Positions 4,964 to 42,143 of a stretch of 64,000 nt of DNA are shown here, piece after piece (position 1 is the first letter of the stretch; each line of letters opens with the position of its first letter). Source of the DNA: Photobacterium sanguinicancri. GTDB lineage: Bacteria > Pseudomonadota > Gammaproteobacteria > Enterobacterales > Vibrionaceae. The notes under the pieces are model-generated. The model worked only from the letters and a program-made list of their open reading frames with translations, ran no database searches and was not told the origin of the DNA. The DNA lies in contig NZ_AP024851.1 of the NCBI RefSeq assembly GCF_024346675.1, forward strand, positions 1,178,001 to 1,242,000. The letters are read 5' to 3'. The position numbers were made by a program, and so were the translations under genes.

Positions 4964-5236
4964 CTAAAATAACGCATCAGAATAAATAGTTAAACCGCCT
5001 TCATATTGGCACTCTAAATAAAGAAATGCGGCTTGCACCATTTAATTCCTTCCGCAGATAGAGCCCCCCCCCGCTGGCATGCTGGCTATTGAAAACGGCA
5101 GTTTGCCACTCTCACCAAGATCAATGAAAACATATTGGCCGGCTTTAAACTCGAACTCTCTATCCGCTTGTAAACAAACCGCCAGTGTTTTTGTATTTAG
5201 GTAAGTTAAGCTCACAACCTTACAATGTATTGTCAT
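4964..5236 (-). pseudogene. Decayed Fre/LuxG-type flavin reductase
   Basis: The first about 53 codons match the N-terminus of Fre/LuxG NAD(P)H-flavin reductases, including FKAGQYV and the flavin-binding motif PFSIASMP. The reading then jumps, in the same frame and across a 9-base C/G run at 5064-5072, to ICGR, a TAA stop, MVQAAFLYLE and a terminal YSDALF. Intact Fre proteins have an LCGRFEM-type motif about 150 residues later and end in YSDAF-type residues. So about 150 codons are deleted in frame and the conserved Glu after CGRF is now a stop (GAA to TAA is the simplest route). The N-terminal fragment still has a good ribosome binding site (AGGAAGG). A functional 64-residue product is unlikely. 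Confidence 0.75.
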
Positions 5237-5850: not shown

Positions 5851-6148
5851 TGTTGTTCTCCTGTCTGGTTGATGGGGAGAATTCTATCGATTTAAAACCC
5901 AACCCATTACAAACATTAAGACAAAAAACATCAAAATAAGGACTTTGGGTTTTATCAGCCAACCCGCCTCCTATAAGAGCAAAAGAATGCTTAATTCAAC
6001 GCTGCTTATAAGCCAAGTGATCTATCATTAAGACTCGCTACGTACTGAACAGGTAAAGAACACAGCATTTCTACGTTTACAAGTAATGCTAAAGCCAGCT
6101 GAACCTTAGCCATCCACGACTGAACCTGCATTCATAAGAGGAGCTGTG

Positions 6149-6496
6149 ATGAGTCTCAATCCTTTCAAATACAAGCCACTAGTTGCATTTTCAATACTTG
6201 CTGCCATGACAGCCTATTCCCCTGCTCTCATCGCCTCTGAAACTGAACAATTTGAAATAGGAAAACAAAAAGCCAAAGTATGTATGACTTGTCACGGCGC
6301 TGATGGCATATCAACACAAGAGTCCTACCCTAACCTTCGTGGTCAGAAGATGGGTTACCTCATCTCATCACTCAAAGACTATAAAACCAGAGAACGCACC
6401 AGCGGTTTAGCTGTACTGATGCAGCAACAAGCCGATGCACTTTCTGAGCAAGATATTCAAGATATCGCCTACTTCTATTCACAGCTCGGTAATTAA
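6149..6496 (+). CDS. Small c-type cytochrome, first gene of the oxidase operon
   Basis: This is a periplasmic class I cytochrome c of about 115 residues. A signal peptide (hydrophobic core about residues 13-28, ending near LIASE) precedes one heme-binding motif CMTCHG at about 47-52. A Met in the second half (VLMQQQADALS region) is a candidate axial ligand. The frame is open from a GTG at 6146, but AGAGGAG at 6137-6143 places the start at the ATG at 6149. It lies 27 bases before ccoN in the same direction, so it probably shuttles electrons to or from this oxidase (inference). Confidence 0.85.
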   Translation: MSLNPFKYKPLVAFSILAAMTAYSPALIASETEQFEIGKQKAKVCMTCHGADGISTQESYPNLRGQKMGYLISSLKDYKTRERTSGLAVLMQQQADALSEQDIQDIAYFYSQLGN

Positions 6497-6523: not shown

Positions 6524-7933
6524 ATGGAACAGGTGACAACGCAGTACAGCACTAAAGTTGTGAAGTATTTCATACTGGCATCTTTCGTATGGGCAATTGC
6601 AGGCATGACTATCGGTGTTATTCTCGCGGCGCAGCTGTACTGGCCAGCACTCAACTTCGACTCACAATATTTCCAATTTGGCCGGCTCAGACCTCTTCAT
6701 ACTTCTGGCGTCATTTATGGCTTTGTCGTCAATATTTTAATGGGGACATCACTTTACATCGCGCAGCGCACTGGTCACTGCGAGATCTTTAATAAAAGCC
6801 TTTCGTGGATGGTCTTTTGGGGCTGGCAACTCATTTTACTGCTTGCACTTATCTCTTTGCCCGCAGGCTATACCACATCAAAAGAATATGCTGAATTAGA
6901 GTGGCCAATTGACCTATTGATTGTGCTAGTTTGGGTGCTATATGCCGTATTATTTTTTGGCACTATAGCTAAGCGTAAGGTCGGTCATATATTCGTTGCC
7001 AACTGGTTTTTTGCCGCATTTATTATCGTCATCGCTATGATCTTTATAGTGAATAATCTTGCAATGCCTGTGTCAGCCATGAAATCTTATTCGGTGTTTG
7101 CAGGGGCACAAGATGCCATTGTTCAATGGTGGTGGGGGCATAATGCCGTCGGCTTCTTGCTAACGGCGGGGGTGATCGGGATGAACTATTACTTCATTCC
7201 CAAAGCCGCTGAGCGCCCTATTTATTCATACCGTTTATCCGTTATTCACTTTTGGGGTTTAGTCGGTTTTTACACTTGGGCTGGTACCCACCACCTCATC
7301 TATTCATCAGTACCTGTTTGGGTACAAAACATCGGAATAGTGATGTCACTGATCCTATGGCTTCCCTCTTGGGCGGGCGCTTTCAACAGTGCGATGACCT
7401 TGCTACAAAATAAAGAGAAGCTTAAATCTGACTATATTCTGCTGTTCTTCTTCTCGGCGATTCTCTACTACTGCCTTGCCACATTTGAAGGGCCATTACT
7501 GGCTATCCGATGGTTCAATATGCTGGCACATAACACCGAGTGGGTTATTGGCCATGTTCACTCTGGCGCGTTGGGCTGGGTCGCCATGTCAGGCATCGCC
7601 GTGTTCTACTACTTCATCCCTCGTTTGTGGAATAAAACCGAACTGTGGTCACAGCGGCTGATCAAATGGCATTTCTGGCTAGCGCATGCTGGCGTGGCTA
7701 TTTACGCAATAGCACTCTGGGTAGCTGGCATTGGGGAAGGCTATATGTGGCTGGCGCAAAACGACAATGGCGAGCTGGTATACAGCTTTATTGAGGCTAT
7801 GGACTTCAAGGCGCCTTGGTTGTTCCTGCGTTTCTTCGGCGGTGCGCTATTTGTAGTTGGCTTACTTCTTATGGCGGTGAACTTATACAAAACTGTTCGT
7901 ATGCCAGCTGTACTTGTCGCGAAGGAGGCCTAA
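6524..7933 (+). CDS. ccoN: cbb3-type cytochrome c oxidase subunit I
   Basis: The 469-residue polytopic membrane protein is the catalytic heme-copper subunit that reduces oxygen to water and pumps protons. Expected ligand regions are visible: LRPLHTSG for the low-spin heme near residue 60, WWWGHNAVG for CuB near 200, the WAGTHHL His pair, and IGHVHSGALGW for the hemes near 340. The Tyr in the FYTWAG helix fits the cross-linked tyrosine of the family. Some positions differ from common CcoN (WWWGH for WWYGH, THHL for PHHL), suggesting a divergent second lineage. AAGGGG precedes the ATG. It is followed directly by ccoO. No ccoQ or ccoGHIS genes are in the window. Confidence 0.93.
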   Translation: MEQVTTQYSTKVVKYFILASFVWAIAGMTIGVILAAQLYWPALNFDSQYFQFGRLRPLHTSGVIYGFVVNILMGTSLYIAQRTGHCEIFNKSLSWMVFWGWQLILLLALISLPAGYTTSKEYAELEWPIDLLIVLVWVLYAVLFFGTIAKRKVGHIFVANWFFAAFIIVIAMIFIVNNLAMPVSAMKSYSVFAGAQDAIVQWWWGHNAVGFLLTAGVIGMNYYFIPKAAERPIYSYRLSVIHFWGLVGFYTWAGTHHLIYSSVPVWVQNIGIVMSLILWLPSWAGAFNSAMTLLQNKEKLKSDYILLFFFSAILYYCLATFEGPLLAIRWFNMLAHNTEWVIGHVHSGALGWVAMSGIAVFYYFIPRLWNKTELWSQRLIKWHFWLAHAGVAIYAIALWVAGIGEGYMWLAQNDNGELVYSFIEAMDFKAPWLFLRFFGGALFVVGLLLMAVNLYKTVRMPAVLVAKEA

Positions 7934-8548
7934 ATGATGAGCAAAGATTTCACCCACTCTCTTGTCATTTTAATCATAACAACCGTTGTGGTGGCCTCGT
8001 TTTCTCTGGTGGTTTGGGTCGTACCCAACATTGTTCGTGGCGATGATATTGCCAAAGGCAGCTTAGCCATACCCTTCACGCCTATTGAATTAGCAGGACG
8101 AGATATCTACATCAGCGAAGGGTGCCATGTATGCCACACCCAAATGGTGCGCCCGCTTGATCCCGAAGTGAAACGTAATGGTCGCCCGAACCAAGAAGCT
8201 GACGACATTTATGAGTTTCCTAACTTGTGGGGTTCAAAACGTACAGGTCCTGATCTCACAAATATAGGCAGAAAATATTCTGACCAATGGCATGTACTAC
8301 ACCTTGTCGACCCAAGACAGGTTATTCCAACCTCTATCATGCCTGCTTACCCTTGGCTGTTTGAACAAACACTGTCAGGTGATGACATCAGTGCCAAGAT
8401 GGAAACCCTTAGAACGCTCGGCGTGCCCTATACCGATGAAGAAATAGGTGATGCAAGATTACAGGTAAGAGGGAAAACCAAAGGGGAAGCATTGATCCGC
8501 TATCTACAAAGCCTTGGTAAAGATACGTCACAGGAGGTATCACCATGA
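7934..8548 (+). CDS. ccoO: cbb3-type cytochrome c oxidase subunit II
   Basis: The 204-residue protein has one N-terminal membrane anchor (about residues 10-32) and a periplasmic mono-heme domain with CHVCHTQMVRP near residue 64. The following LWGSKRTGPDLTNIG and SIMPAYPWLF are hallmarks of CcoO. It relays electrons from CcoP to CcoN. The ATG follows the ccoN stop without a gap and is preceded by a strong AAGGAGG. Its stop overlaps the ccoP start (ATGA), so the subunits are probably translationally coupled. Confidence 0.95.
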   Translation: MMSKDFTHSLVILIITTVVVASFSLVVWVVPNIVRGDDIAKGSLAIPFTPIELAGRDIYISEGCHVCHTQMVRPLDPEVKRNGRPNQEADDIYEFPNLWGSKRTGPDLTNIGRKYSDQWHVLHLVDPRQVIPTSIMPAYPWLFEQTLSGDDISAKMETLRTLGVPYTDEEIGDARLQVRGKTKGEALIRYLQSLGKDTSQEVSP

Positions 8549-10713
8549 GTGCATTTTGGGAACTATGGGCCGTAATTTTCACCTTAACCTTCTTCGTACT
8601 GATGGTCTCTGTGATAGTGAAATATTGGCGCAGTAACCATCAAGCCGATCAAAACCACACCATCGGCAGCTTTGATGGCATCGAAGAAAAAGATGCCCCA
8701 CCGCCAAAGCTCTTGTTTACCAGCTACGCTATCGCATTTGTGCTTTCTGCGGGTTATCTCGTGCTCTATCCTGGCTTAGGCGAATGGCAGGGCCTTATCG
8801 ATTGGCAGCAAAGTGACGATAAACTCAGCTCACCGCGCACTAGCCTTGATCAGCAGTTTTCCCAAATCAATGACACTGAAAATGGCATCAAATTAAACAA
8901 GCTAGCTAAAATCCCAGAGATAGTTGCAAGCGGACAAATTCTGTTTCAAACGCACTGCGCCGCCTGTCATCGTAACAATGCACAAGGACAAAAACATTTT
9001 CCTAACCTTATCGACCAAGAGTGGCTATATGGCGGCACTGACGAAGCCATAATTCATTCTATAGCGAAAGGCCGAAACGGTGCTATGCCCGGCTGGAGTG
9101 AAATACTTCGCCCTGATGAAGTGGCAAAGTTATCGTATTACCTCGCTTCACTGAACCAGCGTCATACCGATGTGCCAGAGGTAAAAGTGGCGTTAGGTAA
9201 AACCTTATTTACTCAATACTGTGCATCATGTCATGCCGACGGCTCAGTGGCTAACCAACAACTTGGTGTACCCGATCTCTCTGACGATATTTGGCTGCAT
9301 GGCGGTAGCATTGAAGAGATCCAACACACGATTAATTATGGTTTAAATAACCTGATGCCCGCCTTTGGTGAGCAGCTGACAGAAAATGAAATACTCGCTT
9401 TAGGTGCTTACATTCGCTACACAGGTTTTGAAGAACAACAGAAGTTAGAAAAATTAGAGGCAAAAGCGATCGAACGGGGTGAATACCTCGCTTACGCGGG
9501 TGACTGCGTCGCTTGTCATAGTGCTGAAGGTGGCGAACCTTTTGCGGGCGGACTGCCTTTTGTAACGCCATTTGGTACCGTTTATTCTACCAACATCACG
9601 CCGCATTCAAGCGAAGGGATTGGAGAATATGACTTTGACGATTTCAGTGATGCGCTTGTTCGAGGTAAGGGCAAAAACGGTTATCTCTACCCTGCAATGC
9701 CTTACACTTCTTATCAACACCTCACCGAGCAAGACATGCTCGACTTGTGGGAATACATGCAATCTATCACAACCGTTTCACGTCGTAACGATGACAACAG
9801 CATGATGTTTCCGTCGAACATTCGTTTAGGGTTACTGGGCTGGAATATCGTGTTTATGGACACAGATCCTATCGACTACAGCGTACCTAACGCATTGAAA
9901 GCACAAATAGCAGATGTCGAAAAATGGCAACAAGGAAAATACTGGGTGGCGGGGTTAGGTCACTGCTCTGAATGTCACACCCCAAGAAACATCGCACAGG
10001 CATTAATTGCTGAGCGTATTTTTCAAGGGAATCTCATTGATGGTTGGAACGCACCCGATATCACCGCTAATGAACTGTTTATCGATGGTTGGGATGAAGC
10101 CACATTGACTGATTTCTTGCACACAGGTCATTCCGATAAAGGAACAGCCTTTGCTGGCATGGCCGATGTGGTCAAAAACAGTCTGAGCCTAATGACACGA
10201 GAAGATGTTGAGTCTATGTCTTATTACCTACTAAGTGGCGATACGAATAACGTGATCAGCAAAGATGCAGTGCCACTACAGCCCAAAGGTTTTGATGATG
10301 CCTCTTATCAAACACCTATCTACACCACTTACCGCCAAACCTGCGGTGCATGTCATGGTGACGATGGTAAAGGCCGCCCACCGATTGCACCGACACTGTT
10401 AAACAACGGTATTATCATGCACAGCGATCCGTTCAATACCATTGCCGTCACTGTTCGCGGGTTACAACCTACCTATATTGATAAAGATCGTAACTTTATG
10501 CCCATGGCCAGTTTTGAGGACGTACTGTCTGATAAGAACCTTGCAGAGCTGATCACCTTTGTTCGTTCCAATCTTGGTGACAGGCATGAACCTGTTACCG
10601 CGGAACACGTCAGAGAAGTCAGAGAGACCTTGGAAGCTGCTGGTTATGCAGGAGGATTACACACCACACCCGATATGTATGACCGACGTGATAATACGAT
10701 TAATATTAAGTAG
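8545..10713 (+). CDS. ccoP: CcoP fused to a three-heme alcohol-dehydrogenase-type cytochrome
   Basis: This 722-residue protein is more than twice the normal CcoP length (about 300). Residues 1-295 are an ordinary CcoP: two membrane helices, the linker FDGIEEKDAPPPK, YLVLYPGLGEW, and two heme motifs (CAACH 138-142, CASCH 226-230). Residues about 305-722 match the membrane-linked cytochrome subunit of alcohol/gluconate dehydrogenases. This part has CVACHSAEGGEPFAGGLP with PFGTVYSTNITP (heme at 321-325), CSECH at 474-478 and CGACH at 600-604. One continuous frame thus carries five hemes. In the family the second part accepts electrons from a quinoprotein or flavoprotein dehydrogenase. Here it could feed them straight into the oxidase (inference). 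No partner dehydrogenase is in the window. Confidence 0.92.
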   Translation: MSAFWELWAVIFTLTFFVLMVSVIVKYWRSNHQADQNHTIGSFDGIEEKDAPPPKLLFTSYAIAFVLSAGYLVLYPGLGEWQGLIDWQQSDDKLSSPRTSLDQQFSQINDTENGIKLNKLAKIPEIVASGQILFQTHCAACHRNNAQGQKHFPNLIDQEWLYGGTDEAIIHSIAKGRNGAMPGWSEILRPDEVAKLSYYLASLNQRHTDVPEVKVALGKTLFTQYCASCHADGSVANQQLGVPDLSDDIWLHGGSIEEIQHTINYGLNNLMPAFGEQLTENEILALGAYIRYTGFEEQQKLEKLEAKAIERGEYLAYAGDCVACHSAEGGEPFAGGLPFVTPFGTVYSTNITPHSSEGIGEYDFDDFSDALVRGKGKNGYLYPAMPYTSYQHLTEQDMLDLWEYMQSITTVSRRNDDNSMMFPSNIRLGLLGWNIVFMDTDPIDYSVPNALKAQIADVEKWQQGKYWVAGLGHCSECHTPRNIAQALIAERIFQGNLIDGWNAPDITANELFIDGWDEATLTDFLHTGHSDKGTAFAGMADVVKNSLSLMTREDVESMSYYLLSGDTNNVISKDAVPLQPKGFDDASYQTPIYTTYRQTCGACHGDDGKGRPPIAPTLLNNGIIMHSDPFNTIAVTVRGLQPTYIDKDRNFMPMASFEDVLSDKNLAELITFVRSNLGDRHEPVTAEHVREVRETLEAAGYAGGLHTTPDMYDRRDNTINIK

Positions 10714-10743
10714 CGAATCGTCATAGTCGATTCGCTTAAAATC

Positions 10744-10790
10744 AATACCAATACCAATACCAATACCAATACCAATACCAATACTAATAC
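10744..10790 (+). repeat. AATACC hexanucleotide tandem repeat
   Basis: Six perfect copies of AATACC, then AATACT and a partial AATAC, lie 30 bases after the ccoP stop. The repeat is outside any gene. Such arrays vary in copy number by slippage; its effect here is unknown. Confidence 0.9.
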
Positions 10791-10809
10791 AAATAAACAT
10801 ACAATTAGC

Positions 10810-10848
10810 GCCCCCTAAAAGATCATCTATACAGTGATCTTTGGGGGC
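10810..10848 (+). terminator. GC-rich stem-loop after the oxidase operon
   Basis: GCCCCC...AGATCA (10810-10825) pairs with TGATCTTTGGGGGC (10835-10848) with a small bulge. There is no T tract after it. It is probably the 3' end of the oxidase transcript, less likely a processing or attenuation site. Confidence 0.45.
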
Positions 10849-11153
10849 ATCGATAAGCCTATTATCAGATTACACCGCAACGTCAGCTAACAGTTTATGA
10901 AAAATAGTGAATTTATGTTCACCTTTGCAGGCAAAAAATAGATACATGAATTGCCCCAGACTTGAGATGAAGCAAGAAGTAGCTCAAAACATCCGCAATA
11001 GAGCAATTAAACGCTCCTTTACAGTTTAATTTATGTAACAAAACATATATATTTACAAATCTGTCAATATAGAAATTCCGATAAAAACTAATTTATCGAA
11101 AGTAAGATAGACATCCATATCATCAACACTTCAGTCATTAAATGCAGGAAGCT
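10849..11153 (+). other. Leader region of the two ToxR-like cassettes
   Basis: This AT-rich gap must contain the promoter of the regulator cluster starting at 11154. I see no palindrome or known regulator box that I would defend. Confidence 0.4.
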
Positions 11154-11876
11154 ATGTGGGAATTTAGGCCAGGCACCTCAGAGCCATTAAAGCATCGCAT
11201 GACGGGAGAAGTGAGATCACTTAAGAATTCTGAAAGTCGATTGTTACTGTTACTGCTCACTCATTCGCATCGTACTGTAACGAAAGATGAAATTCACAAT
11301 TTCGCATGGCCGGGAAAAGTCGTATCGGATGACAGCATCACCCGTGCTATTTCAACATTACGTACAGCTTTAGGTGACAGCGCTGCCCAGCAAAAGATCA
11401 TTCGTACAGCTCCAAAGTCCGGATACTTTATCATCGGAAATCATGTTGTACTCATTGAAGAAACACCTCAGGCTACAATTACACCTGTTTCTAACCGCAC
11501 ACAGAAAAATAAACTAAGAGTGGGCCTCTTATTGACCTGTTTAGGATTCATATTGGTTAATGTCTTTTTATTTAATTTCCTTTTCATGCCTAGCGGCAAT
11601 TCAGATCAATACATGTTGTCGCGTATTATTTCGGGCAATACACAATTCATGGTGGAAAGCGATGACTTAGTCAGTCTCGAACTAATGAGCAATCTAAGTC
11701 ATAAAAAAAGATCTCAACCTGTAGATTTCTATATCACCTCGAATCAAGCGAGAATTTACGTAAGCTGCGTTATTCGCACCCCGGAAGCAAAAAGGCGTAA
11801 TAGTCTTAATTTATCAATAGATATCGATAACCCCCTTGAGTACATCAGTAATGAAATACATCAACAATGCCAATAA
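11154..11876 (+). CDS. ToxR-like membrane-bound transcription regulator, cassette 1
   Basis: This 240-residue protein has a cytoplasmic winged-helix domain of the OmpR/ToxR type (about residues 1-100, with FAWPGKVVSDDSITRAISTLR and the wing PKSGYFI). One membrane helix follows at about 121-144, then a periplasmic domain of about 95 residues. That domain holds two Cys, in IYVSC and in the terminal QQCQ. The frame opens at 11142, but the ATG at 11154 gives MWEFRP, which lines up with MWCFDP of its paralogue at 12352, so I start there. The 3' end overlaps the next gene. The layout is that of ToxR, TcpP, CadC and VtrA, which act as one-piece sensors and DNA binders. The signal and targets are unknown. 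Confidence 0.85.
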   Translation: MWEFRPGTSEPLKHRMTGEVRSLKNSESRLLLLLLTHSHRTVTKDEIHNFAWPGKVVSDDSITRAISTLRTALGDSAAQQKIIRTAPKSGYFIIGNHVVLIEETPQATITPVSNRTQKNKLRVGLLLTCLGFILVNVFLFNFLFMPSGNSDQYMLSRIISGNTQFMVESDDLVSLELMSNLSHKKRSQPVDFYITSNQARIYVSCVIRTPEAKRRNSLNLSIDIDNPLEYISNEIHQQCQ

Positions 11877-12348
11877 AGCCCTAATATTGCTGCTTGGGGC
11901 ACTGATCTTGGCTATTCCATTGCAAATATCGGTAAGCCAATTTCTGCTCCCCGAGTTTGTTAAGAACAGTCGTACCATTATAAATAAAACGATTATTTCT
12001 TACGGCAAGAAGCAAGTTACCGCTCAATCTCGGACGATTGAATATCGCTTAAAACCCTACTGGTGGAATCGATACCTACTACTTACAGACATTCAATTTG
12101 ATCATGGCGAAAAGCTCAAGACGCAGTTTATTATCACTTTTTGGCCTTCTAACTTGTATTCAATTCAATACATTAGCAAGTTATTTAATGCCGACGAAAT
12201 AAAGTATTTTGACCCACCAGAACAACACGTTCTCTTTGATGGCGGCGATGAAAACTTTCAAGTTTTAGTCGAAGATAGTCAACTTTATTGCTATATCCAG
12301 CTGTCAAACCAAGCTGTTCAGTGCGTCGATATAAACCAAAGAGAGTAA
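11851..12348 (+). CDS. Small membrane partner of the ToxR-like regulator, cassette 1
   Basis: This 165-residue protein has one N-terminal membrane helix (about residues 9-30) and a periplasmic domain. Near the C-terminus are two Cys in LYCYIQLSNQAVQC. It overlaps the preceding regulator by 26 bases when started at the ATG at 11851 (a TTG at 11836 is the alternative). The arrangement copies ToxR/ToxS, TcpP/TcpH and especially VtrA/VtrC, where the second protein completes the periplasmic sensor. Sequence similarity to those is too weak to name it, so the role rests on layout and on its paralogue at 13142. Confidence 0.7.
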   Translation: MKYINNANKALILLLGALILAIPLQISVSQFLLPEFVKNSRTIINKTIISYGKKQVTAQSRTIEYRLKPYWWNRYLLLTDIQFDHGEKLKTQFIITFWPSNLYSIQYISKLFNADEIKYFDPPEQHVLFDGGDENFQVLVEDSQLYCYIQLSNQAVQCVDINQRE

Positions 12349-12351
12349 AAA

Positions 12352-13158
12352 ATGTGGTGTTTTGATCCAACAGCAAGATGGCAGCTTACGCACACACAAA
12401 ACAGTACTGCGAAAAAGCTAAAATCAACCGACAGTAAAATACTTGAGATGCTGCTGCTTCATCAAGGTCAGGTGGTTTCGAAAGAAGAACTTGAAAACGC
12501 AGCTTGGCCAGGTCGTTTTGTGTCCAAATCAAGTCTAACTCAATCGATAGCCCAACTTAGGTTTGCGCTTGGTGACAGTGGACGAGAGCAAAAAATCATT
12601 AAAACACTACCAAGACAGGGTTATATGCTTGCCACCAATGTGATGATGATGGAGATAAATACACAATCCAAACCTTCCGTGGAAGTGTCCGTACAGCCTG
12701 AAGAACAGAGTGAACTTGATAGCCAGAACATACTAATTCTCCCCCGCAATTCGGAGAGTACGCACTCTTACGTTTCGTCCACTACCGGTATTTCGCGGAT
12801 TCAATGGTGCCTATTGATACTATTGTCTATTTCATTAATCATGAGTTCGTATTGGCTCACAGTGATGATCTACAGAAATAATCACATTGCACGAGATAAA
12901 TGGCAGCAAACCTCCTATCAAGGAGTACGCTACTTTTTTGAACCCAAAGAGCAAGGTGAACAACTGTTTAACTGGCTGAAAGATACCTATTCAGACAACC
13001 TTCGCATGCTCTATTTATCCAAAAATCCAGAGCAACTCTATGTTTCATGCATCTATCTATCAGGTAGTTTAAAAGAACGCAAAGTGACCAACATGAGCTT
13101 CATACATAACTTTTCACCAGAAAATATAAAGAGAGCGATTCGTGAACAATGTCAATAA
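12352..13158 (+). CDS. ToxR-like membrane-bound transcription regulator, cassette 2
   Basis: This 268-residue paralogue of the gene at 11154 starts 3 bases after the preceding stop. Its winged-helix domain (about 1-100; AAWPGRFVSKSSLTQSIAQLR and the wing PRQGYML) is clearly related. A longer linker (about 100-148, with many Ser and Glu) precedes the membrane helix at about 150-174. The periplasmic domain again has two Cys, in LYVSC and the terminal EQCQ, at equivalent places to cassette 1. The 3' end overlaps the next gene by 17 bases. The cytoplasmic halves are more alike than the periplasmic halves, suggesting the two copies now sense different signals (inference). Confidence 0.85.
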   Translation: MWCFDPTARWQLTHTQNSTAKKLKSTDSKILEMLLLHQGQVVSKEELENAAWPGRFVSKSSLTQSIAQLRFALGDSGREQKIIKTLPRQGYMLATNVMMMEINTQSKPSVEVSVQPEEQSELDSQNILILPRNSESTHSYVSSTTGISRIQWCLLILLSISLIMSSYWLTVMIYRNNHIARDKWQQTSYQGVRYFFEPKEQGEQLFNWLKDTYSDNLRMLYLSKNPEQLYVSCIYLSGSLKERKVTNMSFIHNFSPENIKRAIREQCQ

Positions 13159-13627
13159 AGTGATATGCACATTATTCGCTGCGAATGTACTGATTATAGT
13201 TAGCATTTTCGCTCTCAATGTTTATCATCATCCCATGTTTTTAGTGGGCAAAAATAATACGATGCTTTTTTCTCACGGGATGACTTATACAGAAGATCGC
13301 GTCGAGTCTTATCAAGAATATTTTACCGTTGATCATACATGGAACGGTTTTCATGACCTCTACTCGACCATACAGACTGAGGGTGTGATAAAGAAAAGTT
13401 TAAAAGTTTATTACTCCGTCTATTTCTGGGGACTCGATATTTTTTCAAGTCGGAACACCCTAAGAAGCAAAGAATACACACCGTCAACCGAACCTGATAT
13501 CACAGAGGCTCATCTCATTGATGAAAATATAGAACAGTTCTTTCAGATTTTATACCAAGATGATTTTAGCTTCTGTTACACCAGTTTACTGACCAGCAGC
13601 GTCCAGTGTATCACCGCTGACCAATAA
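13142..13627 (+). CDS. Small membrane partner of the ToxR-like regulator, cassette 2
   Basis: This 161-residue protein starts at a GTG inside the preceding gene. It has one membrane helix (about residues 7-28) and a periplasmic domain ending in FSFCYTSLLTSSVQCITADQ, whose two Cys match the LYCYIQLSNQAVQC segment of the protein at 11851. Both begin with a similar NN-NK stretch before the helix. These shared points, not overall identity, support a second VtrC/ToxS-like partner. Function is inferred from layout. Confidence 0.7.
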   Translation: MNNVNKVICTLFAANVLIIVSIFALNVYHHPMFLVGKNNTMLFSHGMTYTEDRVESYQEYFTVDHTWNGFHDLYSTIQTEGVIKKSLKVYYSVYFWGLDIFSSRNTLRSKEYTPSTEPDITEAHLIDENIEQFFQILYQDDFSFCYTSLLTSSVQCITADQ

Positions 13628-16169: not shown

Positions 16170-17675
16170 ATGTTGTATACACAACCAAACAATGAAGGTG
16201 CTGTTGTCAACTTTAAGGAAAAATACCAGAACTTTATTGGCGGCAAATGGATTAAACCTGTCAATGGTCAGTACTTTACCAACACGTCTCCAGTAAACAA
16301 CACAGCCATTTGTGAGATCCCAGCATCAACACAAGATGATATCGATTTAGCCGTAAAAGCTGCGCACGAAGCACGCGTAACTTGGGCGGTCACCTCTGTG
16401 ACTGAGCGCGCTAACCTACTTCTGAAAATTGCAGATCGCATTGAAGCCAATTCAGAAATGCTTGCAGTCGCTGAAACTTGGGATAATGGTAAACCAGTTC
16501 GCGAAACACTGGCTGCTGATATTCCATTAGTGGTTGATCATTTCCGCTATTTCGCAGGCTGTATCCGAGCGCAAGAGGGTAGCGCAGCTGAACTAGACAG
16601 CACGACCGCATCTTACCACTTCCCAGAACCTGTGGGTGTAGTTGGTCAGATCATCCCATGGAACTTCCCACTACTCATGGCTGCTTGGAAACTCGCTCCT
16701 GCTCTCGCCGCTGGTTGTTGTGTTGTACTTAAGCCAGCAGAACAAACTCCAGCCTCGATCCTTGTTCTCATGGAGCTACTACAAGATTTAATCCCAGCAG
16801 GTGTCGTCAATGTCGTTAACGGCTACGGCCATGAAGCAGGCCAAGCATTAGCAACACACAAAGGGATCAATAAAATTGCCTTTACAGGTTCAACTGAAGT
16901 TGGTCAGCAAATTCTAAAATGTGCGGCAGATAGCCTAATCCCTTCGACTGTAGAACTTGGCGGTAAATCACCAAACATCTTCATGGCTGACATCTTTAAT
17001 CATGAAGACAGCTACCTTGATAAATGTGTGGAAGGTGTACTACTTGCCTTCTTTAACCAAGGCGAAGTATGTACTTGCCCATCTCGCCTACTGATCCAAG
17101 AGTCTATCTATGATCGCTTCATGGAAAAACTACAAGCACGTATCAAAACAATTAAACAAGGCAACCCGCTGGACACTGACACGCAAGTGGGCTCACAAGT
17201 GTCTCAAGAACAATTCGATAAGATCCGCGGCTATATTACTCTAGGGCAAGAAGAAGGTGCCGAGTTATTGGCTGGCGGCAACAGCAGTTCAGACAACGGC
17301 TACTTCGTAGAACCAACATTGCTGAAAGGTACCAATGATATGCGTATCTTCCAAGAGGAAATCTTTGGTCCAGTTGTCGCTGTTACTACCTTCAAAACCA
17401 TTGAAGAAGCATTAGAAATTGCTAACGATACTGAATACGGCCTTGGCGCAGGTGTTTGGACTCGCGACAGCAATACCGCATATAACATGGCACGCAACAT
17501 TGAAGCTGGTCGCGTATGGGTAAACTGTTACCACGCATACCCAGCACATGCCGCCTTTGGTGGTTACAAAAAGTCAGGTATTGGTCGTGAAACTCACAAA
17601 ATGATGCTAGATCATTATCAAAATACCAAGAACTTGCTAGTAAGCTACAGTGTTAACCCTCTAGGTTTCTTCTAA
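16170..17675 (+). CDS. NAD-dependent aldehyde dehydrogenase (AldB/ExaC/AcoD group)
   Basis: The 501-residue cytoplasmic enzyme oxidises an aldehyde, most likely acetaldehyde, to its acid with NAD. Family marks are the N-terminal [15 protein letters not shown], the cofactor region [27 protein letters not shown], the general-base motif [11 protein letters not shown] and the catalytic Cys in [13 protein letters not shown]. The double Cys (CTC) and the opening fit the acetaldehyde/chloroacetaldehyde group, in which AcoD and ExaC serve acetoin and ethanol use. It is a single gene with its own terminator. It could work alongside the alcohol-dehydrogenase-like cytochrome domain of CcoP, but they are 5.5 kb apart and any link is speculation. 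Confidence 0.9.
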
Positions 17676-17789: not shown

Positions 17790-18473
17790 TTAACTATTTC
17801 GTGTATAGTGCCGCGTAGGTCGCCCGACGCTACCATGACTGATCCTTGCTTCTAAAAATCCCATAGTGACTGCATATTCCAAATAACGTCTCGCCGTCGT
17901 TTTACTTACCCCTATCGCCTTACCGACTGAATCTGATGTCTGTTGGCCTTCTTGTTTGAAGGTATCCATCACTAAGTGCAATGTAATTGAGTCAATATTT
18001 TTGGGTAACTCATCGATAGATTGGCTATCTCTGCGTACACCATAAACTCGATTAATTTCAGACTGTTTAAATTCTTCTCGTGATGAAATCGTGCGGTGAT
18101 AATCTTTAAATCTATGTAATACATCGTTAAAAGAAGTCAAAGCAAGTGGCTTAATCAAGTAATCAAACGCACCTAGCCTCACACCTGATGTCACCGTCTG
18201 TGCATCTGCAGCAGCTGTTAGCATAATGACATCCACATCAGGAGACTGCCCTGAACGCAACTTCCTTAGCCAATCGATACCCACACCATCAGGCAAATAA
18301 TTGTCGAGGATTATCAATTCTGGCTTCATGGTGTTTTGCATGAAGCGCGCATCAGCCAACGAAGATGCAATGCCTACCACTTCAAAATACGGGTTTTGGT
18401 CAATATAAGCCGCGATCATTTCAGCAAGCTCTAGTTTGTCTTCAACAACGAGTGTTTTTATTTTATCTATCAT
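17790..18473 (-). CDS. citB: CitB/DcuR-type response regulator of citrate use
   Basis: This 227-residue response regulator has a receiver domain (about 1-125) with the phosphoacceptor Asp in LIILDNYLPDGVG and the switch Lys in YLIKPL. A C-terminal HTH of the CitB/DcuR/DpiA type spans about 165-225 (VGKAIGVSKTTARRYLEYAVTMG). Its start overlaps the kinase stop by 4 bases. Family members activate citrate fermentation genes in response to citrate. It lies divergent from citC-G, which are its likely targets. Naming follows Klebsiella CitB; dpiA is the E. coli name. Confidence 0.88.
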   Translation of the reverse strand: MIDKIKTLVVEDKLELAEMIAAYIDQNPYFEVVGIASSLADARFMQNTMKPELIILDNYLPDGVGIDWLRKLRSGQSPDVDVIMLTAAADAQTVTSGVRLGAFDYLIKPLALTSFNDVLHRFKDYHRTISSREEFKQSEINRVYGVRRDSQSIDELPKNIDSITLHLVMDTFKQEGQQTSDSVGKAIGVSKTTARRYLEYAVTMGFLEARISHGSVGRPTRHYTRNS

Positions 18474-20044
18474 GCTGATTTGTCCCCTTTGGGAATAAAT
18501 AGGCTAAATACCGCACCAAAAGGCTCATTATCTTCCACAACGATTTGTCCAGCGGCTTTAGTGGTTAAACTTGCAATCAAAGCCAGCCCGACACCATGAG
18601 GCGAATTATCATCAAGCTTACTGGTGTAACCATCTCTAAAAATGGATTCTTTATCTTTTTCCGCTACCCCCGTCCCATTATCAGACACTTCAATAATCAA
18701 CTCAGCACCTGCATCTGTCGCAAATAGTTCGATATCACCTTTACGGTCAGTATTGGCAACGGCTTCATATGCATTATCCAAAAGGTTTCCTAAAATGGCT
18801 GCTATTTCATCGGGTGATAGTGGGGACTCCTCTAAAGATAATGATGAACCATCAACAATATTCAGAGTATAACCAAGCTCAGAAGCCCTTCGTTTTTTCC
18901 CTAAAATAATTGCCGCCACAACAGGGTGAAATAGCGTCGTCAATTTAGAGATATCTTCTTGAAGCACATGATTTTCTTTATGGATAAATTGCTGTGCTTT
19001 GTCATATAAACCCATCTCTAACATACCAGAAACTACGGCCATATTATTGGCATACTCATGGGTTATAACCCTTAAATCATCACGCTCTTTCGCCACCTGG
19101 CTAACCATAAGCTGCAGCATTGTTGAGGTATCGCGTCTTCTAAAACTAACGACATAGCCAATCACAATATCACCATCCATCATCGCTGTGCGTGTTGCTA
19201 ATAATGTTTCGCCATTAACATTAATGGTGGTTTCTTGCATTTCATCAGCATGGCTCACAAAGAAAGTGCTCGGATAGCAACATGTTGATATGTGAGCGCC
19301 AAACAACTCAGATTTTGATTTCTCCATCCCCAGCATTTCAATTGCTCGGTTATTTATGACCAAAATCACCCCCTTCGTGTCTACCGCAATCACTCCTTCG
19401 GCCACACTATTTAGGATCCCTTTGCGTAACTGATACGCTTGGGCTATTTGCTCAGGGCTCATTCCCGATAATTTATCTTGTATGTAGTTACTAAAACGTC
19501 TCGAGCCATAAAGCATCACTGACAACATCAGTACAATTAACACCGTCGCTTGGAACAAATAATGTAACACCAAACTTTTCACATGCGTCTCAAGGAAACC
19601 CACCGAAATCATACCAATCACTTCCCCGTGTGAATAAACAGGCATTCGAGTCTTAATCGATAGCCCAGAAAGTCCTCGGTGGATCTCAGTTTGCGCTTGC
19701 CCAGTGATCACTTCTTTGAAGTTGTCATCTAAAATAAACTTACCTTCTTGCTTAGCATCGTTGTGATATAAACGCTCTCCGCTTTTACCTGCAACAACTA
19801 GAATATCCACATCAAATATCGCGTTATCACGTAAAACATCATCAAGCCTTATCCGATCTGAAGTTTCTATCGCTTGGATAACATCCGGATTAATCGCGAT
19901 TGCAGAAGCAAAATTCCTCGTCTCATGAAACTTATCATTTGTTAATACTTTATCGATCGCGGAAAGGCTGGTGAGCACGCAAAATATGGCAATTAAAATT
20001 GCAGCAATAGATTGAATCATTAAAATTCGACTTTTAAATTCCAT
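18470..20044 (-). CDS. citA: CitA/DpiB-type sensor histidine kinase
   Basis: The 524-residue membrane kinase has two transmembrane helices (about residues 8-30 and 170-192). They enclose a periplasmic PAS-like (PDC) domain that in CitA binds citrate. A cytoplasmic PAS domain follows (about 205-310), then the phosphoacceptor His in VITHEYANNMAVVSGML. The ATPase domain ends the protein, with N-box LGNLLDNAYEA and G-boxes DNGTGV and GVGLALI. It forms an operon with the response regulator and is divergent from the citrate lyase genes. Confidence 0.9.
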   Translation of the reverse strand: MEFKSRILMIQSIAAILIAIFCVLTSLSAIDKVLTNDKFHETRNFASAIAINPDVIQAIETSDRIRLDDVLRDNAIFDVDILVVAGKSGERLYHNDAKQEGKFILDDNFKEVITGQAQTEIHRGLSGLSIKTRMPVYSHGEVIGMISVGFLETHVKSLVLHYLFQATVLIVLMLSVMLYGSRRFSNYIQDKLSGMSPEQIAQAYQLRKGILNSVAEGVIAVDTKGVILVINNRAIEMLGMEKSKSELFGAHISTCCYPSTFFVSHADEMQETTINVNGETLLATRTAMMDGDIVIGYVVSFRRRDTSTMLQLMVSQVAKERDDLRVITHEYANNMAVVSGMLEMGLYDKAQQFIHKENHVLQEDISKLTTLFHPVVAAIILGKKRRASELGYTLNIVDGSSLSLEESPLSPDEIAAILGNLLDNAYEAVANTDRKGDIELFATDAGAELIIEVSDNGTGVAEKDKESIFRDGYTSKLDDNSPHGVGLALIASLTTKAAGQIVVEDNEPFGAVFSLFIPKGDKSA

Positions 20045-20384: not shown

Positions 20385-21392
20385 ATGAAAATTCAAATCG
20401 CGACAATTAATGCTGATTCAGTGCTATACAAAGATTCAGTAAAGTATCTGATTGAAAGCCAAGGGCTCAATTACGAAGACGACCTAGAGTATTACTGTAC
20501 CGCACATGACGGTTCAGGTGAGCTTATTGGCTGTGTAGGGCTTGCTGGTACAGTGATCAAATGTTTTGCTATTCGTGATGACTACCAAGGCGAAGGCATT
20601 TCTCGCTCTATGATGACCGAAATTATTCTTTTGGCTTATCAACTTGGTCGTAAAAGTTTATCTATATTCACCTCACCAGATAACGTTGCAATTTTTGAAA
20701 GTATGCGTTTTCAAGCCATCACATCTAAATATAGGCGTTCCGTATTACTAATTAATCGTCCTGATGAAATCATTACACTTCAGCATCAACTCCACAGCTA
20801 TAAAGTTACGGGAAATAAAATTGGATCCATAGTGATGAACGCCAACCCATTCACGAAAGGTCATGCTTATCTTATTGAAAAAGCAGCAAGTGAATGCGAC
20901 TGGGTCCATATTTTTGTAGTACGAGAAAACAATCAAGCTTTCTCATTTAAAGACCGTTTTTCAATGGTTAAAAACGGCACTTTGCCTATTCCCAATTTAA
21001 CCCTCCATGCTGGCAATGACTTTATGATCAGCAAACGGACCTTCCCTTCTTATTTCTTGAAAGAAAGTGGCAACGTGCACCAAGTACACGCTGAAATCGA
21101 CTGTGAATTATTTGCCAATTATATCGCGCCAAGCCTTGGGATCACTCATCGTTATATCGGCAGTGAGCCCAACTGCAAAGTAACTGAAAACTACAACAGC
21201 ATCATGAAAACAATGCTGCAACCACATATTGAAGTGGTTGAATTTAATCGTCTTCTCGCCGAAGGCTGCACAATCTCAGCTTCAACCGTTCGAAATCAGC
21301 TTTCTAACGCAGCCTCAGCGGTTGCGAGTTTATTGCCGGTTTCAACCATTAATTATCTCGTTGAACACTGTGGCTACGCGCTACATATCTAA
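20385..21392 (+). CDS. citC: [Citrate (pro-3S)-lyase] ligase
   Basis: This 335-residue cytoplasmic enzyme acetylates the thiol of the citrate lyase prosthetic group with acetate and ATP, activating the lyase. An N-terminal GNAT-like region (about 25-125; IRDDYQGEGISRSMM) is followed by a nucleotidyltransferase domain (about 145-330). The latter has the HIGH-like motif NANPFTKGHAYLI and the late motif ISASTVRNQL. Length and order match CitC. It opens the citrate operon behind the FNR box. Confidence 0.95.
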   Translation: MKIQIATINADSVLYKDSVKYLIESQGLNYEDDLEYYCTAHDGSGELIGCVGLAGTVIKCFAIRDDYQGEGISRSMMTEIILLAYQLGRKSLSIFTSPDNVAIFESMRFQAITSKYRRSVLLINRPDEIITLQHQLHSYKVTGNKIGSIVMNANPFTKGHAYLIEKAASECDWVHIFVVRENNQAFSFKDRFSMVKNGTLPIPNLTLHAGNDFMISKRTFPSYFLKESGNVHQVHAEIDCELFANYIAPSLGITHRYIGSEPNCKVTENYNSIMKTMLQPHIEVVEFNRLLAEGCTISASTVRNQLSNAASAVASLLPVSTINYLVEHCGYALHI

Positions 21393-21405
21393 CATAGAGG
21401 CTCCA

Positions 21406-21693
21406 ATGAAAATATGTGAACCAGCAGTAGCTGGCACTTTTGAAAGCTCAGATCTCTTCGTTGAGGTCGAACCAAGTGAAGAATTCACCCTGAAGGTAAG
21501 TTCTTCAGCCACCCAATTTCGCGATGCTGTTGAATTACAGGTTCGAGCAACTTTAGACAAGCTCGCTGTCGGCAATGGCAAGTGGGTTATCGCCGATTCA
21601 GGTGCGCTAGATTGCATCATCAGTGCACGCGTTCAAGCGGCGGCTTTACGAGGTGCTCAGCAATCTGCACTCAATTGGGAGGAATTAGTATGA
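21406..21693 (+). CDS. citD: Citrate lyase acyl carrier protein (gamma subunit)
   Basis: The 95-residue protein carries the 2'-(5''-phosphoribosyl)-3'-dephospho-CoA arm of citrate lyase. The modified Ser is residue 14 in the N-terminal AGTFESSD motif, exactly where it lies in known CitD. The frame is open upstream inside citC, but the ATG at 21406 after AGAGG fits the family start. The stop overlaps the citE start (ATGA). Confidence 0.95.
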
Positions 21694-22565
21694 AACTTCG
21701 TCGCTCTATGCTTTTTGTGCCTTCATCTAACGCAGCGATGGTTTCAAACACCTTTATCTACGATGCTGATGCGATCATGTTTGATCTTGAAGATAGCGTG
21801 TCCCTTCGGGAAAAAGACACGGCACGTCTGATCTTATTTAACGCACTACAGCACCCCCTTTACCAAGAGATAGAAACCGTTGTTCGTGTGAATGCTCTTG
21901 ATTCTGAGTTTGGTGTTCACGATGTCAATGCCGTTGTCGCAGCTGGCGTTGACGTTGTTCGCTTAGCTAAGACCGACAGCGCACAAGATGTCGTTGATAT
22001 GGAAAAAGCCATTGCAACAGCTGAAGCCGCTTGTGGGCGCCAGATTGGCTCAACCAAAATGCTGGCAGCTATTGAATCGGCAATGGGCATTACAAATGCT
22101 AAAGACATTGCTTTTGCTTCTGAACGTTTAATTGGGATCGCACTAGGTGCAGAAGACTACGTCAAAGATTTGAAAACCAACCGTTCACCCGAAGGCACTG
22201 AACTTCTTTTCGCACGCTGCGCTATTCTCCAAGCCGCACGGGCTGCAGGTATTCAATGCTTCGATACGGTATACAGCGACGCCAACAATAACCAAGGTTT
22301 TACCGCAGAAGCCGAACACATCAAGCAACTTGGCTTTGATGGAAAATCGTTAGTAAATCCACGTCAAATCGAATTGCTTCACAACATCTATGCCCCGACT
22401 CAAGCCGAAGTTAACCATGCGGAAGCGGTCTTGATTGCTGCACAAGAAGCGGAAGATAAAGGTATTGGGGTTGCATCGCTCAACGGCAAGATGGTCGATG
22501 CACCGATCATCGAACGTGCGCGACTCACATTAAAACGTGCAACTTCAGGTATTAGAGAGGAATAA
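21690..22565 (+). CDS. citE: Citrate lyase beta subunit (citryl-ACP lyase)
   Basis: The 291-residue TIM-barrel enzyme cleaves citryl-ACP to acetyl-ACP and oxaloacetate. It begins [17 protein letters not shown], shows the metal-binding Glu/Asp in [13 protein letters not shown] and [11 protein letters not shown], and has the usual length. The frame extends upstream within citD, but GGGAGG before the ATG at 21690 and the ATGA overlap fix the start. Confidence 0.96.
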
Positions 22566-22567
22566 TC

Positions 22568-23992
22568 ATGGCTATCGCTCAGCAGCAAAGAAAAGTACGT
22601 TCAGATTTAAAAAACGCCATTCAAGCATCGGGCCTGCAAAATGGTGGGACTGTTTCTTTCCACCACGCATTCCGTGGTGGTGATCAATTAATCAATAATG
22701 TGATGAACACCATTGCAAATATGGGATTTAAGAACCTCACACTGGCTTCAAGCTCACTCACCGATTGCCATTCTCCACTGGAACGTCATATCAAAACAGG
22801 GGTTATTACTAAGATTTACACATCCGGTATTCGCGGACAACTTGCCGAAGAAATTAGCCATGGTCTAATGGCGCAACCGGTAGAAATTCACTCTCATGGT
22901 GGTCGCGTGCACCTTATTCAATCAGGTGAACTCAAGATTGATGTCGCCTTCTTAGGTGCGCCAACATCCGATATTTTTGGTAACGCCAACGCCGTATCTG
23001 GATCGGCACGCTGTGGTTCGCTGGGGTATGCGAAAGTTGATGCTCAATACGCCAAGCATACGATTGTATTAACAGAACAGCTGGTTGATTACCCAAACTC
23101 ACCAGCATCCATCGCCCAAGACTGTGTCGATAGTGTCGTCGTGGTTGATCAACTGGGTGATCCATCGAAAATTGGCGGCGGTGCAACACGCATGACCACC
23201 AACCCAAGAGAGCTCCTTATTGCACGTAAAGCCGCAGAGGTAATTGAGCACTCTGGCTACTTCAGTGATGGATTTAGCCTACAAACAGGTTCAGGTGGTG
23301 CATCGCTTGCTGTTACTCGATTCCTTGAATCAAAAATGATTAAAAAAGGCATTACCGCATCGTTTGGGCTTGGTGGGATCACAGCCACTATGGTCGATCT
23401 ACACGAAAAAGGTCTGATCAAAAAACTAATGGATGTACAGTCTTTTGACGCTACCGCTGCGGACAGCCTTGGTCGTAATAACCATCACATCGAAATCAGT
23501 GCCAACCAATATGCTAACCCTTCGAGCAAAGGGGCGACGGTTGATCAACTTGATATAGTGATCCTCTCGGCACTTGAAATTGATACCCAATTCAATGTTA
23601 ACGTAATCACAGGATCGGATGGTGTGATCCGTGGTGCTTCAGGTGGCCACTGTGATGCCGCAGCTGGAGCCAAACTCACCATTGTTGTCGCCCCTTTGGT
23701 TCGTGGCCGTATCCCGACACTCGTTAGCAAAGTGCTTAACACAGTAACAATGGGCGACTCGATTGATGTATTAGTTACAGATCACGGCATAGCAGTTAAC
23801 CCAAACCGCCAAGATGTAATTACTCACCTAACAAACAACAATATCGACCTCACTGACATCAATGAATTACAACAACGCGCAGCAATGCTCGTTGGTGACG
23901 CCAGTCCAATTCGTTATACCGACAGAGTGATAGCCAACATACGCTACCGCGATGGCTCAGTGCTAGACCACATTTTACAGGTCGCGCAATAA
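22568..23992 (+). CDS. citF: Citrate lyase alpha subunit (citrate-ACP transferase)
   Basis: The protein swaps acetyl for citryl on the acyl carrier arm. Conserved blocks are SFHHAFRGGD, FKNLTLASSSLTDCH, EIHSHGGRVHLIQSGE, GGGATRMTTNPRELLIA and LTGSDGV-like ITGSDGVIRGASGGHCD. At 474 residues it is about 35 shorter than the E. coli protein, the difference being a shorter N-terminal arm. It is two bases after citE; its stop overlaps the citX start (TAATG). Confidence 0.96.
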   Translation: MAIAQQQRKVRSDLKNAIQASGLQNGGTVSFHHAFRGGDQLINNVMNTIANMGFKNLTLASSSLTDCHSPLERHIKTGVITKIYTSGIRGQLAEEISHGLMAQPVEIHSHGGRVHLIQSGELKIDVAFLGAPTSDIFGNANAVSGSARCGSLGYAKVDAQYAKHTIVLTEQLVDYPNSPASIAQDCVDSVVVVDQLGDPSKIGGGATRMTTNPRELLIARKAAEVIEHSGYFSDGFSLQTGSGGASLAVTRFLESKMIKKGITASFGLGGITATMVDLHEKGLIKKLMDVQSFDATAADSLGRNNHHIEISANQYANPSSKGATVDQLDIVILSALEIDTQFNVNVITGSDGVIRGASGGHCDAAAGAKLTIVVAPLVRGRIPTLVSKVLNTVTMGDSIDVLVTDHGIAVNPNRQDVITHLTNNNIDLTDINELQQRAAMLVGDASPIRYTDRVIANIRYRDGSVLDHILQVAQ

Positions 23993-24522
23993 TGTTTGGG
24001 GGCGTAAAAGTGTCTGCGCTTGATGTGATGGCATTTAACGATGCTATCGCAGAATTACAGTGTAACTGGTTAAGCCAATACGGCGGCGTGCTAGTCAGTT
24101 TCACCGTTAATATGGCAGGACCAATTAAGGTTAACAAAGCATCCAGTGTCGTTTTTGAGCAAGGCTGCCAAGCCATCAATCACGTTTGCTCTAACACGCC
24201 CCTGAATATAATCAACCACCATCAAATACAAACCCATGCAGGGTTTCACTACTTGATAGCGCTAAACAATGCGCCTGATAACAACTTCGATGCCATAGCA
24301 CTGAAAAAACAGTTGATTCAGCTTGAATCCACTCACCCTCTTGGTCGGTTAATGGATATTGATGTACTGAACGGCTCACTCAGGCCACTCTCACGCTCAA
24401 ACATTGGCTTACCAAGTCGACGTTGCATCATCTGTGATGATGATGCAAAGAATTGCGCGCGCAGTCGTCGCCACTCTTTGCAAAACCTGTATATGGAAAT
24501 TGAGGAGATGTTAACACAATGA
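23992..24522 (+). CDS. citX: Apo-citrate lyase phosphoribosyl-dephospho-CoA transferase
   Basis: The 176-residue protein attaches the CoA-derived arm to CitD. The C-terminal block GRLMDIDVLNGSLRPLSRSN then LPSRRCIICDDDAKNCARSRRH is diagnostic of CitX. The ATG at 23992 overlaps the citF stop; a GTG at 24010 within the VSALDVMAF stretch is an alternative. Its stop overlaps citG. CitX is a separate gene here, not fused to CitG as in some bacteria. Confidence 0.92.
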   Translation: MFGGVKVSALDVMAFNDAIAELQCNWLSQYGGVLVSFTVNMAGPIKVNKASSVVFEQGCQAINHVCSNTPLNIINHHQIQTHAGFHYLIALNNAPDNNFDAIALKKQLIQLESTHPLGRLMDIDVLNGSLRPLSRSNIGLPSRRCIICDDDAKNCARSRRHSLQNLYMEIEEMLTQ

Positions 24523-35934: not shown

Positions 35935-36223
35935 CAAACGTCAGTGATTATACGCCAAAAGAGCCGATTGACTAGCTCCAATGTGTTCTATTTTATTGGA
36001 GTGAGATTATTTGAGAGATGACTAGGATGCAGGTTAATGATGGGATCTTATTAGATGCGACCTGGGGATTAGAAAAGCGCTGTTACGGTCGCTGTATACA
36101 TATAGATAGTGAAATATTTTCATCGAAAACCGGATACATAGCGCATCATGAAAGATGCCCTCTTTCATGATATAACAATTTAAGCTATTGTATTTAAAGT
36201 CATTTATAATAAAACATCGCCTT
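35935..36223. other. Divergent promoter region
   Basis: This gap must hold the promoter for the riboswitch transcript (minus) and that of the large gene at 36224 (plus). No clear regulator box is seen. Confidence 0.4.
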
Positions 36224-42131: not shown

Positions 42132-42143
42132 AGTCGCCTCCAA

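Follow-up and report, generated by a model that had tools for sequence, protein, structure and literature searches.

The 64,000-nucleotide stretch of Photobacterium sanguinicancri DNA analysed here (hereafter the window; bases 1178001-1242000 of the second of two contigs in a 5.55 Mb genome) carries four consecutive forward-strand genes that, judged from their sequences, are predicted to encode a cbb3-type oxygen reductase. The last of these genes (8545..10713) is a real and conserved frame in which a di-heme CcoP is joined to a tri-heme cytochrome of the type found in dehydrogenases. An earlier interpretation of the same DNA made from the letters alone (the sequence-only reading) had described a single-frame fusion with five hemes, and this description holds. 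The 722-residue product is read from one unbroken frame and bears CxxCH motifs at residues 138, 226, 321, 474 and 600 (hemes 1 to 5; 8956..8970, 9220..9234, 9505..9519, 9964..9978 and 10342..10356), with candidate distal methionines at residues 181, 271, 385, 539 and 652 or 654.

The two halves of the protein match different families, as the sequence-only reading had anticipated. The CcoP half (residues 1-295; 8545..9429) has two heme c domains and, by prediction, two membrane helices. The fusion scores 198.3 bits against the NCBIfam ccoP model TIGR00782 (cut-off 179.95; best stretch, residues 32-291), and residues 1 to 290 or 292 match the CcoP chains 8smr_G (E 9.1e-47) and 3mk7_C (E 4.9e-45). 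The second half, hereafter the arm (residues 307-700; 9463..10644), was delimited by structure-chain matches, a phylogenetic tree and conserved heme sites. For residues 306-700 the match is to the cytochrome subunit of a quinone alcohol dehydrogenase (8gy2_B; E 1.9e-58, 201 bits), and an AdhB fold with three c-type heme domains spans residues 304-707, at 32-33% identity to 8gy2_B and 7w2j_C. The domain that holds heme 5 aligns to 8hdd_B, the resolved part of the electron-transfer subunit of a flavin adenine dinucleotide (FAD) glucose dehydrogenase.

The junction between the halves (residues 293-306; 9421..9462) is variable in sequence, with a mean pairwise identity of 28.6% among 30 fusions, and is predicted to be mostly helical. 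An AlphaFold2 model of the fusion (mean predicted local distance difference test score, pLDDT, 86.0; predicted template modelling score 0.80) runs from a helix at residues 280-302 directly into another at residues 306-318 across the joint. An earlier model built from 14 sequences had a pLDDT of 49.9; in the later alignment the second heme domain of ordinary CcoP rows was placed on the heme 5 column, so that fewer sequences underlie the heme 2 domain and the relative pose of the halves. The arm keeps its three heme sites in 30 of 30 fusions checked. In pairwise comparison of 30 fusions, mean identity is 66.8% in the tri-heme half versus 54.7% in the CcoP half. Because the tri-heme half is the better conserved one in 435 of 435 pairs, it is under selection. 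Between codons 280 and 329 the window gene has no in-frame ATG, GTG or TTG, so a second protein could not be initiated there on its own. Sequencing error and the production of two separate proteins were both considered, and are ruled out by conserved full-length relatives together with this lack of a start codon near the joint.

The operon begins with a small c4/c554-like cytochrome c gene (6146..6496) whose product has one CxxCH motif and an N-terminal signal-like stretch. Its Protein Data Bank matches include cytochrome c554 (2zzs_A; E 9.8e-24) and the cytochrome c4 chains 8uf3_A and 1etp_A, and another cytochrome c4 chain, 6q2u_A, is listed there alongside the bc1-cbb3 entries 8smr and 8snh. 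Cytochromes of the c4/c554-like kind are carriers that feed cbb3 oxidases. The second gene is ccoN (6524..7933), which codes for the catalytic subunit (592.0 bits against TIGR00780, cut-off 583.15; 578 bits to 3mk7_A). Its histidine-bearing motifs align identically to those of 3mk7_A, and we take these histidines to be metal ligands. Next comes ccoO (7934..8548), which we assign to the mono-heme subunit on the basis of NF011055 (232.6 versus a cut-off of 218) and the FixO Pfam family, its TIGR00781 score of 197.7 being slightly under the cut-off of 200.65. The ATG of the fusion gene overlaps the ccoO stop codon, and because of this overlap there is no ccoQ between the two genes.

Of the 71 loci in which the fusion gene is long, 70 have this gene order (the window is counted, and three contigs enter twice); L098, the one exception, is truncated at the end of its contig. 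None of the 71 loci has a dehydrogenase gene inside the four-gene block. The small-cytochrome cluster occurs in 75 loci including the window, five of which lack the long gene: in L030, L092, L093 and L094 it is split in frame, and L104 lies at a contig edge. No clean loss of the arm was seen among these loci. The frame breaks in L030 (genome G017, 9019-11218) and in L092 to L094, as well as the shorter frame of genome G591, could reflect either decay or assembly error, and the ccoN gene of G017 is likewise broken. We also scanned the 75 upstream regions for the consensus of an FNR box. With related and duplicated rows included, 5 regions have a best site with one mismatch or none (about 4% of shuffles), and 44 have one with two or fewer (about 36% of shuffles). 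The best FNR-like site of the window itself has two mismatches and lies at the gene start, and we draw no conclusion on FNR control from these sites.

Distribution and origin of the tri-heme arm

The fusion is a recurrent feature of the Vibrionaceae, and a survey of this family and of the lengths of relatives upholds what the sequence-only reading had proposed from a single gene. A query spanning the junction matched 98 of 296 Vibrionaceae genomes, from which two (G432 and G483) were excluded since only a separate tri-heme cytochrome was matched, leaving the fusion in 96 genomes, or about a third. Two of these 96 are without a full-length frame (G017, in which it is broken, and G591, with a frame of 472 residues). 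Among the best 120 relatives listed, 114 have at least 680 residues and the other six have 535-654, and all 138 proteins of at least 680 residues carry exactly five CxxCH motifs. A second Photobacterium sanguinicancri locus (L041) is 98% identical at the fused protein. Among carriers with a name are species of Vibrio, Photobacterium, Aliivibrio, Psychromonas and Shewanella, together with a gammaproteobacterial metagenome-assembled genome and Sinobacterium norvegicum. In an even sample of 369 genomes from the class, in which each genome contributed at most about five candidates for scoring (threshold E 1e-50), the fusion was found in the window's own genome only. Public records label these proteins as c-type cytochrome, cbb3 subunit III or the like.

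The sequence-only reading had likened the second half to the cytochrome subunit of AdhB or gluconate dehydrogenase type. The AdhB-type fold stands, but the closest relatives found for the fused module are the tri-heme subunits of molybdenum hydroxylases rather than those of FAD gluconate-type dehydrogenases. In a tree of 48 tri-heme modules, the 17 from fusions form one group (support 100/99) whose sister is a set of 13 cytochromes from Vibrionaceae and Psychromonas operons (joint support 100/99). The other 18 modules, which have GMC (glucose-methanol-choline), other molybdenum or undetermined partners, are set apart. This tree is midpoint-rooted, has long branches and contains neither a row for the pyrroloquinoline quinone (PQQ) alcohol dehydrogenase nor cytochrome c5. 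The 13 sister cytochromes accompany a large subunit of about 950 residues and a [2Fe-2S] subunit, partners whose types come from Pfam for L140 (MoCoBD_1 and 2, Fer2 and Fer2_2, with XdhC and a MocA-like gene downstream) and from similarity for the other operons. Pairwise scores point the same way: the fusion matches the molybdenum-type cytochrome of genome G027 with 302 bits versus the 201 bits noted above for the PQQ alcohol dehydrogenase chain. Because the fusion modules group together beside cytochromes of molybdenum operons, the arm was most likely gained once, from a molybdenum hydroxylase cytochrome. Loss of a C-terminal anchor was considered as a trait specific to the fusions and was rejected, as no anchor was seen either in those separate relatives whose length permits the measurement.

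Candidate donors and respiratory setting

A dedicated sugar or alcohol dehydrogenase had been proposed by the sequence-only reading as the electron donor of the fused protein, and our searches of the window's own genome did not yield one. The operon encodes no dehydrogenase. The Gluconate_2-dh3 family (PF13618) has no match in this genome or in any of 36 same-genus genomes. PQQ_2 matches in the own genome (G000) are confined to one frame of 389 residues, the size of BamB, and those in the same-genus genomes fall in frames of 388-397 residues of that same size, apart from one weak match each in G008 (325 residues, under the cut-off), G034 (473 residues) and G035 (787 residues). The own genome encodes two GMC enzymes (544 and 610 residues), and because both begin directly with the FAD-binding motif they are unlikely to be exported, and were set aside as donors of the arm.

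Molybdenum hydroxylases in the own genome match the query for the related type only at E 3e-14 or weaker and, by eye, lack a signal-like start. An enzyme of the related type was not found in this genome or in 86 of the 96 fusion genomes, with two candidates per genome scored, such that some may be missed. It likewise gave no match in five of seven same-genus genomes that rely on the fusion alone, as defined below (G002, G010, G017, G025 and G030). With only 10 of 96 fusion genomes carrying the related enzyme, we rejected it as an obligate partner.

A bypass of the bc1 complex, also part of the sequence-only reading, is not required, because cytochrome c1 is present in 36 of 36 same-genus genomes. 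At a threshold of E 1e-40, fusion-type CcoN occurs in 15 of these genomes, eight of which also have an ordinary CcoN and seven of which do not (G001, G002, G010, G012, G017, G025 and G030). Of the remainder, 18 have ordinary CcoN only and three have neither. Since fusion-type CcoN is the sole CcoN detected in the seven genomes at this threshold, the five-heme enzyme appears to stand in for the ordinary cbb3 oxidase there. None of the seven has an intact match to FixH/CcoH (G002 retains a fragment of 30 residues), whereas FixH is present in all 26 same-genus genomes with ordinary CcoN, a contrast which suggests that the five-heme oxidase may mature without FixH/CcoH. In the own genome, FixH and a gene with a CcoI-like sequence lie beside an ordinary ccoNOP on contig 1.

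Possible roles of the arm

We tentatively favour, at somewhat less than an even chance, a role for the arm as an electron collector for the cbb3 oxidase, taken over from a molybdenum hydroxylase and fed mainly by the c4-like cytochrome of the operon. We infer the donor, direction and path of the electrons as follows. The small c4/c554-like cytochrome would be the main donor, and would itself receive electrons from bc1 and perhaps also from other dehydrogenases of the periplasm. The distal domain with heme 5 would be the point of entry, from which electrons would move by way of heme 4 and then heme 3 to the pair of CcoP hemes, and on through CcoO to the CcoN active site and oxygen. In favour of this proposal are the near-constant place of the c4-like gene at the head of an operon free of dehydrogenase genes, the cytochrome c1 of all 36 same-genus genomes, the seven genomes in which fusion-type CcoN is the sole CcoN detected, the lack of matches to Gluconate_2-dh3 in the genus and to the related hydroxylase in five of those seven, the high conservation of the arm, and the helix that is followed directly by another across the modelled joint. 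Several observations weigh against it. A c4-like donor can dock on an ordinary CcoP, and so such a donor alone leaves the three extra hemes unexplained. The strong conservation of the arm hints at one particular partner protein. All 36 same-genus genomes encode a COX2-type oxidase subunit, and therefore electrons from bc1 may have another outlet. Finally, the fusion occurs in 10 of 16 carriers of the related molybdenum hydroxylase versus 86 of 280 other genomes (Fisher p 0.012, uncorrected for relatedness; within the genus, 3 of 6 versus 12 of 30, p 0.68), and this enzyme adjoins the operon in 3 of 71 loci, from P. profundum (L024/L089, one contig fetched twice) and Psychromonas marina (L079).

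This enrichment and adjacency favour, in some species, a direct docking of a periplasmic dehydrogenase on the arm, with electrons reaching oxygen without quinone and bc1. We nevertheless consider this unlikely as a general account, given that the own genome yielded no exported PQQ, gluconate-dehydrogenase or related molybdenum partner, that most fusion genomes yielded no related hydroxylase, and that all 13 molybdenum operons compared still have a separate tri-heme cytochrome of their own. An unlikely, broader version of the same idea is that the electron-exit module of a dehydrogenase has been mounted on cbb3, such that some dehydrogenase, or a set of interchangeable donors, passes electrons to oxygen without quinone or bc1, and that the resulting enzyme has displaced the ordinary cbb3 in some species and matures without CcoH. 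Dehydrogenase cytochromes normally take electrons from an oxidised substrate, which counts against an arm that works outwards, from the bc1/CcoP pool to a periplasmic reductase or other acceptor. We judge such an arm improbable, the more so because the ten frequent neighbour families described below include no clear respiratory reductase and none of them recurs in more than 19 of 71 loci, although one of them, a 155-residue protein in 11 of 71 loci, has a weak Oxidored_molyb match (22.1 bits, cut-off 24) that could be read in its favour. The third heme of the extended Neisseria CcoP is a direct precedent for an electron branch of this kind (PMC2924362), but that domain derives from cytochrome c5 and the present arm groups with dehydrogenase cytochromes.

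Two further roles seem much less probable. The arm might itself oxidise quinol and thereby create a bc1-independent quinol oxidase, and AdhB-type subunits do exchange electrons with ubiquinone. We regard this as very unlikely, in view of the cytochrome c1 kept in all 36 genomes and of nine fusions that have no hydrophobic segment from 85 residues past the last heme (best 15-residue hydropathy at most 0.2), a weak argument given that separate relatives are similar (up to 0.35). There is slighter probability still in a structural or assembly function, for instance as a substitute for CcoH in genomes with the fusion alone. The pattern of FixH/CcoH, missing in intact form from all seven of those genomes and kept in the 26 with ordinary CcoN, would fit this role; however, a scaffold does not need the heme sites that are kept in every fusion inspected, and eight fusion genomes have both FixH and the arm.

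Among known systems, residues 1-295 resemble di-heme CcoP (3mk7_C, 8smr_G) in their membrane helices, two heme c domains and position after ccoN and ccoO, but about 425 further residues with three hemes follow in frame and no ccoQ precedes the gene. The arm shares the three heme c domains of the molybdenum hydroxylase cytochrome subunits, its sister group (L024, L032-L036, L079 and L138-L143; also 8gy3_A, from a Gluconobacter aldehyde dehydrogenase of the molybdenum type). Those subunits are separate proteins encoded beside their own dehydrogenase, whereas here the module is fused to an oxidase subunit. It also shares the fold of AdhB of quinone alcohol dehydrogenase and of the fructose dehydrogenase subunit (8gy2_B, 7w2j_C), but unlike these has no PQQ or FAD gluconate-type partner that we could find in the own genome.

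A natural precedent is the tri-heme CcoP of Neisseria. Its description contrasts it with every other CcoP known at the time, all of them di-heme, and attributes it to a fusion with cytochrome c5 of proposed single origin, serving electron flow to nitrite reductase (PMC2924362). Both proteins are CcoP subunits extended by a C-terminal cytochrome through gene fusion. The Neisseria protein has one cytochrome c5 domain after a region rich in Ala, Ser and Pro (PMC2924362), whereas the present one has a whole tri-heme dehydrogenase-type cytochrome after a short predicted helical junction, and its three extra heme domains group with molybdenum hydroxylase cytochromes in a tree that had cytochrome c5 outside its scope. 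CcoP is likewise covalently joined to more cytochrome domains in the cytochrome c1-CcoP-cytochrome cy fusions of Rhodobacter capsulatus, but these are man-made and use other cytochromes (6xkx; PMC7876108). Of two other papers, one has PBPRA1834 as its cbb3 protein (PMC3669370), and the other describes a five-heme cytochrome that is a protein of its own, encoded next to ccoP, and not the present fusion (PMC10732223). A five-heme CcoP was not named in the titles or abstract beginnings found by our literature search, whose coverage excludes most subscription journals. The fusion shows that nature, too, and in many species, has remodelled the electron entry of an oxidase by joining genes, here with a module native to substrate-oxidising dehydrogenases. 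The genomes with the fusion alone open to direct test how added heme domains direct the flow of electrons at the oxidase, and whether a cbb3 oxidase can mature without CcoH.

Neighbouring genes and the rest of the window

Beyond the four-gene operon the flanks are variable. Within the flanks retrieved, the most widespread neighbour family is an aldehyde dehydrogenase cluster, which reaches 19 of 71 loci with the window counted; next comes an EAL/GGDEF cluster, in 18. Pfam searches on ten frequent neighbour families identified EAL/GGDEF and GGDEF proteins, an ABC transporter ATPase, an alpha/beta hydrolase, a DUF3726 protein, a DEAD-box helicase, a BCCT transporter and a membrane dipeptidase, in addition to one family without a match (603 residues) and the 155-residue protein mentioned above. 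No clear candidate for a recurring partner of the fusion emerged from these ten. The 155-residue protein and a GGDEF gene lie together upstream of the operon in 11 of 71 fusion loci (for example L042, 1959-3458, reverse strand).

Close to the operon in the window, a reverse-strand piece of 64 residues (5042-5236) matches the start of NAD(P)H-flavin reductase, and L041 has an open reading frame of 232 residues at about the same place. Just past the operon (11142-13627, forward strand) are two successive pairs, each composed of a winged-helix protein that is weakly CadC-like and, downstream of it, a small open reading frame with an N-terminal hydrophobic stretch. The window's member of the common aldehyde dehydrogenase cluster (16170-17675, forward strand) falls near the ExaC model, with a score of 898.6 against a cut-off of 900. 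Farther along are citrate lyase genes on the forward strand (20385-25469; the ligase, an HpcH/HpaI-type lyase, CitF, CitX and CitG), preceded by a two-component system (17790-20044), then a phosphotransferase system permease and aconitase B. An open reading frame of 1226 residues (36188-39868, forward strand) has no Pfam match at E 0.001, and it is followed on the reverse strand (39963-42143) by a molybdopterin oxidoreductase with an Fe4S4 domain that begins at residue 22.

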